IMG/VR virus record: IMGVR_UViG_3300046777_002218
Coordinates: 1 to 26,844 of that record
From: a virus
Direction: 5' to 3' (one strand)
DNA length: 26,844 nt
Both the position numbers and the translations under genes were made by a program. Under the pieces are notes generated by a model, which ran no database searches, was not told the origin of the DNA, and saw only the letters and a program-made list of their open reading frames with translations. Of the stretch, positions 4,592-8,561 are shown in pieces (position 1 is the stretch's first letter; each line of letters opens with the position of its first letter).

Positions 4592-5028
4592 CTCCTATCT
4601 GGAAAGCCTTTGCTTCAGTGGACATTCAAGAAGTGGGCGACGAAGGAGCCATGTGGACAGGGCATCAAGCCAATCCCAACGCCCTTCCATTGCTCATGCC
4701 TGTCTACGTGGTGTCAGCAGCCAACCCACGAGGCATGAGAGCCAGCGATGGCTACAACGATTCTGTTCATAGTCTCCTGGAAACTGCCGTTCGTGACACT
4801 CTTCCACGTGCTCAAGTCATGCAAGTAGTGAGCTATTCCCCAGATGGACAATGGAGGGAACAAGGGCTAGCTCTTTCTGGCATCAGCAAGGCAGAAGCTC
4901 TTGTGCTTGTGCGCCAGTTCTACCAACTGGCCATGTTCGCCCTCACGAGAAAGTGGAAGATGGTGGTGAATATAGAGGGAGGCGTGGAAGCTATTGTGCC
5001 CCGGCTAGGAACCGGCTGGAAAGCATAG
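4588..5028 (+). CDS. 146-residue protein, unknown; C-terminus enters a repeat array
   Basis: The start at 4588 overlaps the previous stop (ATGA). The sequence begins [20 protein letters not shown], has a central segment (MRASDGYNDSVHSLLETAVRDTLPRAQVMQVVSYSPDG) and a hydrophobic helix (AEALVLVRQFYQLAMFALTRKWKMVVNI). No family recognised. The last residues (LGTGWKA) and the stop codon come from the first copy of the 20-bp repeat at 5008-5027, so the original C-terminus may have been altered when the repeats expanded. Confidence 0.6.
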   Translation: MTPIWKAFASVDIQEVGDEGAMWTGHQANPNALPLLMPVYVVSAANPRGMRASDGYNDSVHSLLETAVRDTLPRAQVMQVVSYSPDGQWREQGLALSGISKAEALVLVRQFYQLAMFALTRKWKMVVNIEGGVEAIVPRLGTGWKA

Positions 5029-5136
5029 TAGGAACCGGATGGAAAGCATACGGAGAACCGGCTGAAAACTGTATGCCTGGAACCGGCCTGGAACCGGCTG
5101 GAAACCGTATGCTTGGACCCGGCTGGAAAGCGTATG
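5008..5136 (+). repeat. Degenerate 20-bp direct-repeat array
   Basis: About six copies of GGAACCGGCTGGAAAGCATA or shortened and mutated forms, at 5008, 5031, 5052, 5079 (truncated), 5090 and 5115. The first overlaps the 3' end of the gene ending at 5028. The units contain ACCGGC and often end in GTATG or GCATA. Confidence 0.85.
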
Positions 5137-5185
5137 TTTCCTGGCTTTTATGCGCATGGGCGCATAATGGTACAAATGTACTACT

Positions 5186-5379
5186 ATAAGCTAGGCCTAT
5201 CATTCGGCTCCCATTCATAAGCTGCGCTTATCATATAAGCCAGGCTTATCATTCCGGCCCGTCCCATAAGCTGCGCTTATCATATAAGCCGCCCTTATGG
5301 TTTGCCGTTCCATTCATAAGCTGGGCTTATCGTATAAGCTGGCCTTATGATTTGCCGTTCTCCCATAAGCCGAGCTTAT
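5186..5379. repeat. Array of eight ATAAGC-N3-GCTTAT palindromes
   Basis: Fifteen-bp palindromes start at 5186, 5217, 5235, 5266, 5284, 5316, 5334 and 5365. Three pairs have an 18-bp internal spacing (5217/5235, 5266/5284, 5316/5334) and the pairs recur every 49-50 bp; a single copy lies at each end. Copies at 5186, 5284 and 5334 carry one mismatch in the arms. This periodicity indicates cooperative protein binding, as at iteron origins, centromeres or multi-operator repressor sites. No matching Rep or ParB-like gene is in the window. Confidence 0.9.
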
Positions 5380-5447
5380 AGTAGTACGGGCGTACTATTC
5401 TACGGTTTCCCGATGGGAAATAGGGTGATACAAACGTACTACTCTCC

Positions 5448-5472: not shown

Positions 5473-5704
5473 GCCGCGCCATGGGGCCGTACCGTGCTAG
5501 TGGGCGACCAGCCTGGCCGCCTTGTGATCAGCCTGGCTTATGGCGGATGGCCGTTTCCGCCTGCCATAAGCGTAGCCGCTTATCAGTGGCCTGTCTGCCC
5601 GTTTTCCTGCAGAATTTCTGATCAGTGGCGGCCGTCCGATCGGCTCTTCTGCTGCTACTGTTTGTGGGCGCCAGCGATGGCGTTCCCTTCCTTTCTTTAC
5701 TGCC

Positions 5705-6154
5705 ATGCTTGCCGCCAGGCTTGCCGCTCTATATGCGGCCTCGCCCACAGTTCCGTCACAGTCCGAAATTTGGGCTTTAGAAAATTGGATCATGATTGAG
5801 TACAGTAAAATCCCCTGCCGCGTTCAGTATGTAAACTACGATTTAGATTTGCCCACTACAGTAAAGCAATACGAAAAGCTAGGCGCTCTGTTTATTTCTG
5901 TTGCGCACAATACCCACCCCTACTTGTGCCCATGGATTAACGCTAGATTCCGCGCTGTTCATGACTGGCATCATATACAATCCGGCGCAGACTCTACACT
6001 AAGAGGTGAAATTGCTACGTTTAACGTAGCCAAACGTACTGCTCCGCGTACTATTTGGTGGCTGTTATTCAGTGAAATAGCGTTACAGGCTGCGGCCTGT
6101 ATTTATCATGGCAGCTTCCAGCTCCAGAAAACTGTACGCGCTGGGGGGTTCTGA
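5705..6154 (+). CDS. Phage protein with VHDWHH motif, unknown
   Basis: A 149-residue protein. The start at 5705 follows a C/T-rich leader; an internal ATG at 5792 (MIEYSKIPC) is possible. The core INARFRAVHDWHHIQSGADSTLRGEIATFNVA resembles a family in actinophages and cyanophages whose members carry FRAVHD---H and EE/GE motifs, suggesting a metal site formed by His and acidic residues. A hydrophobic helix follows (WWLLFSEIALQAAACIY). Codon use is more AT-rich (ATA, TTA, GTA, AAT) than in flanking genes. It is followed after 2 nt by the 6157 gene, a pairing that suggests a joint role, perhaps in nucleotide or DNA modification; that is inference. Confidence 0.65.
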   Translation: MLAARLAALYAASPTVPSQSEIWALENWIMIEYSKIPCRVQYVNYDLDLPTTVKQYEKLGALFISVAHNTHPYLCPWINARFRAVHDWHHIQSGADSTLRGEIATFNVAKRTAPRTIWWLLFSEIALQAAACIYHGSFQLQKTVRAGGF

Positions 6155-6156
6155 CA

Positions 6157-6759
6157 GTGATCACATACGGGCAAATTTTGGCCACATTCTTCCTAGCCTC
6201 GCCGTCGGAACTAGTGGACGGCGAGCGATTCTATCCTGACGCGTTAGCGCACTGTCAGAATCTGGCACGCGCCTACAGTCTGCCTGTCGAGACTGTGGCT
6301 GGAGTAGTGGCCGCATTGTCGCCGAACAACAAATGGAGCCGCAATCTGCAGGATGCCCACAATATTTGCCGCGCCTATGTTGTGGGCGGATACGCTGACG
6401 CGGAGCAAATTAAATGCTCCACATACAATAGGAACAAAATAAAGGCTTTAACTATTCTAGGTGGAGCCGATCCTTCGACCGTTCTAGGTGGGTTAAAAGT
6501 AAGGGCATTCTATGGTTGTATCATGGGAGATCCGTACGCTGACGTATGCGTCGACGGCCACGCGTATTCAGTGTGGCTTGGCCAATATGTACCCACTACT
6601 AAAACACCTAAGATTTCCCCCAAACTCTATGCGGCAATCTCCGCTGATTATGCCATGGCGGCCGAGCAGATAAACATTATACTAAACACCGCCTATTTGC
6701 CGTGTCAGATACAGGCGATCACGTGGTTAGCGTGGCGACGTATTGCAAAGGAGAATTGA
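6157..6759 (+). CDS. HhH-glycosylase-like phage protein (DUF7178-like)
   Basis: A 200-residue protein with a GTG start at 6157, two bases after the upstream stop. Motifs match a family common in mycobacteriophages: FYPDALAHCQNLARAYSLPVETVAGVVAALSPNNKWSRN, then YNRNKIKALTIL, LGGLKVRAFYGCIMGDPYADVCVDGHAYSVWLG. The LGG-KV-AFY---I......V-VDGHA pattern resembles the helix-hairpin-helix and active-site region of DNA-glycosylase folds, where an Asp follows the HhH; here VCVDGH may play that part. A base-excision or modified-base role is plausible but unproven. Base composition is AT-richer than most of the window, as in the upstream gene, suggesting co-acquisition. Confidence 0.65.
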   Translation: MITYGQILATFFLASPSELVDGERFYPDALAHCQNLARAYSLPVETVAGVVAALSPNNKWSRNLQDAHNICRAYVVGGYADAEQIKCSTYNRNKIKALTILGGADPSTVLGGLKVRAFYGCIMGDPYADVCVDGHAYSVWLGQYVPTTKTPKISPKLYAAISADYAMAAEQINIILNTAYLPCQIQAITWLAWRRIAKEN

Positions 6760-7860: not shown

Positions 7861-8002
7861 GCTTGCGGAGGCTTGTGCCTGCTCGCTCAGGCTTGAGCGT
7901 GAACGAAAGCTGCTCGTAAGCTGCTGAAGGTCATGCTGCGCCTGTCCATAGTGTAACGGAAAGACGGGCAGGAGTGTGGGGGTGTGGGGTCCAAGACAGT
8001 GG

Positions 8003-8030
8003 TTGCAACGGAAGTGAGGGGGTGTATGAT
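8003..8030 (+). promoter_or_regulatory. Sigma70-like promoter candidate
   Basis: TTGCAA (8003-8008), 16-bp spacer, TATGAT (8025-8030), ending 24 bp before the ATG at 8055. It is placed to drive the winged-helix-like gene. Confidence 0.45.
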
Positions 8031-8054
8031 TGTGAGCGATCTCTGATTCGTGAC

Positions 8055-8561
8055 ATGCCTGCCAGTCTTGAGCAATGGTTTGATGCCCTGGAGGAACTGA
8101 CGGCCCAGCACAGTGGCCGGCCACTGCCTGTCCATGCCGTTTACAAAGCCTGTGGCCTACCTTCTCGCGCTGATCGTCGTCGTCCTCAGGACGTGGAGGA
8201 CGTGCGGCACATCATGCAGCTCCTTGGCTGGAGCTTTCGTCGCAGCCCCACGCGCCCCGTGTTCATCGAAAAGGAGGAACGGCAGATCGTGGCCGTGATT
8301 GGTCGGGACTATGGCAAGCCCCTTCTCACGGAAAGACAGAAGCAAGTGCTCGCTGTTCTTCGCACTCTTGACTATCGAGACGGCATCCACACACTGGGCG
8401 CTACCGGCCAGTCCGTGGCGGCAGAATTAGGCTTTGACGGTGACAATGGCCTGCGCATTGCCCGCAAGCAGCTTGATGCGCTCGTGAAGAAGGGCTATGC
8501 GAAGAAAACGATGGCCGCTTGCAGCGTCGGCGGTCGCAGGGCCTTGTATCTTCCCCTGTAG
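8055..8561 (+). CDS. Winged-helix-like DNA-binding protein
   Basis: A 168-residue protein starting at 8055 (MPASLEQWFDALEELTAQHS); upstream in-frame starts overlap the promoter candidate. The N-terminal half (residues about 1-72) has helix-rich LPVHAVYKACGLPSRADRRRPQDVEDVRHIMQLLGWSFRR followed by PVFIEKEE. The C-terminal half (about 90-168) reads as a winged helix: LTERQKQVLAVLRTL, TGQSVAAELGFDGDNGLRIARKQLDALVKKGYAKK, then a basic wing (CSVGGRRALYLPL). Such two-part proteins are typical phage replication or transcription accessory factors that bind DNA. Function is inferred from fold only. Confidence 0.7.
   Translation: MPASLEQWFDALEELTAQHSGRPLPVHAVYKACGLPSRADRRRPQDVEDVRHIMQLLGWSFRRSPTRPVFIEKEERQIVAVIGRDYGKPLLTERQKQVLAVLRTLDYRDGIHTLGATGQSVAAELGFDGDNGLRIARKQLDALVKKGYAKKTMAACSVGGRRALYLPL

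Follow-up and report, generated by a model that had tools for sequence, protein, structure and literature searches.

Phased palindromes in a virus related to Synechococcus phage S-CBS4 match a host Rubisco/carboxysome promoter element and may titrate host regulators

The question raised by this locus is which protein recognises a phased run of short palindromes in viral DNA, and to what end. The window, i.e. the whole 26,844-base stretch of a virus record analysed here, encodes ribonucleotide reductase subunits, a terminase and a portal protein, the last of which is 62% identical to the portal of Synechococcus phage S-CBS4; judged from such comparisons, the window is a relative of that phage. 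The host assignment is based on this kinship and on motifs common to phage and host. A distance of 13 kb separates the array from the portal gene downstream. The first downstream open reading frame of useful length (5705–6154, plus strand) encodes a protein of 149 amino acids without a confident family, at a place where the neighbours differ among phages, and is followed by a gene (6157–6759, plus strand) for a DUF7178 protein, which is frequent in cyanopodoviruses. A search of 50,697 annotated phage records with the window and the array region returned no similar DNA.

The array (5186–5379), proposed here to be a tandem of host RbcR operators (LysR-type, T-N11-A), consists of eight 15-bp palindromes of the form ATAAGC-N3-GCTTAT, which begin at 5186, 5217, 5235, 5266, 5284, 5316, 5334 and 5365. 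Five of them match all 12 fixed bases and three carry one mismatch. The start-to-start steps are 31, 18, 31, 18, 32, 18 and 31 bp, and the pairs at 18 bp (5217 and 5235, 5266 and 5284, 5316 and 5334) recur with a period of 49–50 bp, so that the number, positions and pair spacing given in a preliminary description of this DNA are borne out. At no more than one mismatch, the window contains nine matches, namely the eight of the array and a lone outlying site, ATCAGCCTGGCTTAT (5527–5541), an ATCAG variant used also by hosts and other phages; 300 dinucleotide-preserving shuffles of the window averaged 0.03 matches and never exceeded one. The spacers, described earlier as divergent in sequence, are not fully so, as the 16-nt spacer tends to have its own dyad (CATTC-N6-GAATC/G) across phages.

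The first and last palindromes of the array are without an ATAAG partner and have a GTAC-N4-GTAC palindrome at the partner position instead. These LexA-box-like palindromes, GGTACAAATGTACT on the left (5169–5182) and AGTACGGGCGTACT on the right (5383–5396), are each 17.5 bp centre to centre from the nearest array palindrome. As aligned with the cyanobacterial LexA box consensus AGTACWNWTGTACT, a 14-mer (PMC3091678), the left site is one base off in the arms, while the right site has perfect arms and a deviating core (GGGC). A third, degenerate LexA-box-like site (GATACAAACGTACT) can be seen at 5427–5440. Direct repeats of about 23–27 bp of the GGAACCGGCTGGAAAGCATA type (5001–5134, plus strand) correspond to the GGGTCCGGCTAGNGGCGTATCTA repeats that precede the array in relatives, and such repeats of about 22–27 bp (CCGGCT...CGTAT) are kept across S-CBS4-like phages. 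They were considered as a fourth host motif and rejected, as the core motif of the 22-bp repeats of relatives occurs in 0 of 61 host genomes.

The search of relatives for the same motif and spacing, which the preliminary description had named among its checks, found both to be conserved. A pattern scan detected paired palindromes in 12 IMG/VR contigs with the same 18/31 spacing and adjoining LexA boxes, and the array with this spacing and adjacent LexA boxes was found in 33 non-redundant viral contigs. When the distances between adjacent sites in these 33 arrays are taken without constraint, 31 bp occurs 31 times and 18 bp 22 times, followed by 49, 32 and 22 bp. A scan for LexA boxes within 24 bp of an ATAAG palindrome yielded 41 viral stretches, and the scan matches include cyanopodovirus-related contigs, in one of which (L448) the terminase DNA is 75% identical to that of P-SSP10. 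The stretches read of the Prochlorococcus podovirus isolates P-SSP10 and 9515-10a contain neither a LexA box nor an array.

The relatives are mostly metagenomic, and some short contigs were oriented by their flanking repeats. Where a portal gene is present, the array is about 10.5–12.3 kb from it, and among S-CBS4-like contigs its position is fixed at 10–13 kb from the portal, between variable genes and ribonucleotide reductase. In the common order, a small gene is followed by direct repeats of about 22 bp, by one to three LexA boxes, which in several relatives have a TGAGAATNATTCTCA-like palindrome before them, and by the ATAAG array; beyond it lie, often after one more LexA box, other repeats and variable genes. 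The LexA box is perfect in many of these relatives, and LexA, Zur-type and ATAAG sites are packed 2–3 bp apart. Four phage genomes of 61–74 kb have LexA boxes (at most one mismatch) only at the array; one of them (G001) is apparently circular, as judged by its terminal repeat. An initial reading that S-CBS4 lacks the array was withdrawn. Its record (NC_016766.1) falls about 5 kb short of the length of the circular relative, what is missing corresponding to the array region, and its last 210 bases break off within a gene that lies just upstream of the array and is 68% identical to the gene at G001:3842. The apparent absence thus looks like a gap of the record and is no evidence of loss.

The TGAGAATNATTCTCA-like palindrome adjoins the array in G001, G002 and several other relatives, and no such Zur/Fur-type box is found at the array of the window. 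Exact copies of it are found in 8 of 61 host genomes, and two of these copies precede a znuA-like and a COG0523-like gene (genes named by reading their sequences). Zur is known to control znuA in Synechococcus WH8102 (PMC9337993), and the palindrome is tentatively designated a Zur-type box.

A counterpart of the array motif exists in the hosts. Among 390 cyanobacterial genomes searched, many small (picocyanobacterial) ones contain one or two perfect ATAAGC-N3-GCTTAT sites, and a reversed control motif has almost no matches. Twenty host loci chosen for perfect sites comprise 10 upstream of csoS1-rbcL, 6 between prmA and petF, close before petF, and 4 elsewhere. As a test with no pre-selection for the motif, 61 genomes were searched for the csoS1 protein, and the DNA upstream of it was read in 50 cases. 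An AT(A/C/T)AG-N5-CTTAT-like site was present 57–59 bp before a TTGAC −35 element in 50/50 picocyanobacterial csoS1-rbcL upstreams, from genomes of Prochlorococcus size to 3.7 Mb that are related and hence are not 50 independent events. Mismatches (of 12) number 0, 1, 2 and 3 in 15, 12, 21 and 2 genomes, respectively, i.e. at most two in 48/50, and shuffled csoS1 upstreams reach this level in 0.7%. The host site is centred about 86 bp ahead of the start inferred for the carboxysome-Rubisco operon, and a second ATAAG palindrome at a distance of 31 or 18 bp is not clearly recognisable in the host promoter.

The perfect palindrome between prmA and petF, which encodes a ferredoxin, occurs in many picocyanobacteria and suggests that petF belongs to the same regulon as the carboxysome-Rubisco operon. 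One 5.3-Mb cyanobacterial genome contains 113 perfect sites, which are probably a dispersed repeat. A pattern scan of all bacteria was set aside, as it returned mostly unrelated repeats from Prevotella and Thioclava: many rumen Prevotella genomes have tandem ATAAG-N5-CTTAT sites with 6-bp gaps and a 21-bp period, which form a dispersed repeat without relation to the array of the phages, and in Thioclava genomes several pairs of ATAAG-N5-CTTAT sites, with 30 bp between the members of a pair, lie at different loci.

Synechocystis RbcR recognises the motif ATTA(G/A)-N5-(C/T)TAAT and activates from about −90, as reported by Bolay et al. 2022 (cited in PMC13249358), and a LysR-type RbcR is encoded by Prochlorococcus MED4 (PMC6778093). 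The array shares the AT-n-AG-N5-CT-n-AT dyad with T-N11-A of cyanobacterial RbcR/CbbR operators (Synechocystis rbcLXS and ccmK2K1LMN). Its ATAAG-N5-CTTAT form differs from the Synechocystis consensus by one base per half-site, the third base being A (or C/T) rather than T, and equals the picocyanobacterial form; the ATAAG, ATCAG and ATTAG variants are common to host and phage. As the motif coincides with the host Rubisco/carboxysome promoter element and matches the published RbcR format, the array is taken to consist of RbcR operators, and the sites are very probably host operators. The sequence, spacing and conservation of the sites and their identity with the host element are established, and from these RbcR binding and function are predicted. 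The phage arrangement is distinct from the known RbcR/CbbR operators in having up to nine sites in a phased 18/31 array and in being without the host promoter spacing. The comparison also predicts what an RbcR operator looks like in picocyanobacteria, organisms that are difficult to manipulate.

As tandem host RbcR operators beside host LexA sites, joined in relatives by Zur-type sites, the array would most likely serve to titrate these regulators; this reading as a whole is held with slightly less than even confidence, and its titration part is much less certain than the identity of the sites. One RbcR tetramer may occupy each pair spaced by 31 bp, with tetramers packed every 49 bp. LysR proteins form tetramers on two dimer sites about 30 bp apart and give a footprint of 50–60 bp, a geometry which fits the 31 + 18 = 49 bp of the array. 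Multiplication of the phage genome would create hundreds of sites, which could pull the activator RbcR off the host rbcL/carboxysome promoter and so lower carbon fixation, and pull the repressors LexA and Zur off SOS and metal genes, with derepression of repair.

Titration is favoured because the sites are many, the mixed regulators are of opposite sign, no phage regulator was detected and the host-type promoter geometry does not recur, TTGAC at the host −35 distance being found at 0 of 242 phage sites (both strands), where 1.7 would be expected by chance. This last result is also why the sites are claimed as RbcR-type operators and not as RbcR-activated promoters. The more specific proposal of a phage-borne natural DNA sponge for RbcR, LexA and Zur, which by copy number would shut Rubisco/carboxysome transcription and derepress repair with no phage protein, is advanced more tentatively. 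Several observations weigh against this reading, besides the half-site difference from the Synechocystis motif and the host promoter's lack of a clear second palindrome at the array spacings: the strict 18/31 phasing is not obviously needed in a decoy, certain contigs possess no more than one or two sites, which are few for a sponge, the Zur-type box is absent at the array of the window, and the fixed genome position and the downstream promoter-like element suit cis-regulation as well.

Titration is ranked first with cis-regulation close behind as a serious rival, in which the same host operators, together with the Zur-type sites, would adjust a phage promoter some hundreds of bp further downstream to the state of the host, RbcR responding to its carbon status and LexA to damage of its DNA. 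This alternative is possible, and it accounts for the fixed position of the array upstream of a rightward gene set and for the dense packing of LexA, Zur-type and ATAAG sites; cyanophage genes under host PhoB control (PMC10976474) offer a precedent. A TTGAC...GCGC element, a pattern chosen after the sequences were read, is present downstream in 12/27 arrays, mostly at 190–430 bp, compared with 1.7 expected and 1/25 upstream; a strict sigma-70 pattern is found downstream in 3/29. However, the window itself is without the TTGAC...GCGC element, the host spacing from RbcR site to −35 is absent from all 242 sites, the genes downstream differ among phages, and the promoter stands far from the array, at a distance that varies.

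The preliminary description had suggested cooperative binding of a multimer, as at an iteron-like origin, a phage centromere or a silencer. Cooperative binding to conserved sites fits the 33 viral arrays well, while the three named functions are unsupported because the motif is that of the host Rubisco/carboxysome promoter. An iteron-type origin, with an initiator that would bind the palindromes as well as the 22-bp direct repeats upstream of them, is improbable. Many short repeats do lie within one non-coding stretch, and G001 and G004 have their global GC-skew minimum at 2–5 kb from the array, but G002 and G003 have no global minimum there, so that the suggested skew check gives no consistent origin signal; moreover, no initiator gene was recognised near the array, and the LexA boxes would be left unexplained. 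For a centromere, Pfam and PHROGs scans of the main neighbouring ORFs revealed no gene for a ParA/ParB-type or centromere-binding protein.

A slightly less probable reading still is that the sites serve a repressor or partition protein encoded by the phage, with a motif shared with the host by chance. Phage repressors typically have tandem spaced operators, and an ORF of the window (7974–8561; 195 aa) has a sub-threshold match to LexA_DNA_bind (E 0.0045). However, no family resembling a DNA-binding regulator is among those present in all four long array genomes, no LysR helix-turn-helix was detected in 14 array-bearing phage records, where control genomes gave matches, and the same ATAAG, ATCAG and ATTAG variants are found in host and phage. 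The binder is therefore most likely a host protein, which explains why, as noted from the outset, no cognate gene is obvious in the window. That the palindromes are RNA or DNA hairpins (terminators, packaging or recombination signals) rather than protein sites is very improbable in spite of the perfect inverted repeats, as the 6-bp arms lack T-tracts, the region shows no excess of terminator-like sites over chance, both half-sites and the 18/31 phasing are conserved while the loops vary, and the host copies lie upstream of promoters.

Host-regulator sites in cyanophage DNA have a parallel in PhoB boxes (P-SSM2 pstS; S-PM2d, PMC10976474), which stand at individual phage gene promoters, whereas the array belongs to a dense cluster of sites for several regulators that makes no clear contact with a promoter. 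Synthetic decoy arrays engineered in E. coli (PMC7826281) likewise consist of operator copies, and the phage array, proposed here to titrate its regulator, differs in being natural and phage-borne. In the open-access literature searched, no report linking RbcR with cyanophages was found. Cyanophages shut down host carbon fixation, an effect generally ascribed to proteins that they encode, such as CP12. If true, titration would be a protein-free route to this shutdown via DNA copy number, and cis-regulation a viral read-out of host carbon status; under either function, the connection of infection to aquatic CO2 fixation could be probed with a single plasmid.

Host LexA boxes also lie in the control regions of the LexA-controlled phage switches of coliphage 186, CTXphi and GIL01, whereas the boxes here flank operators of a CO2-fixation regulator; the circular 74-kb relative encodes no tyrosine integrase. 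In Synechococcus phage S-CRES3, LexA-box-like palindromes 48–50 bp apart (1859–1970 and 4760–4790), with an overlapping GTAC-N4 run, occur without ATAAG sites. Three podovirus-like contigs contain non-coding stretches rich in LexA-like boxes and in the palindrome (T/G)AGTAT-N2-ATAC(T/C), which suggests a further host regulator site.
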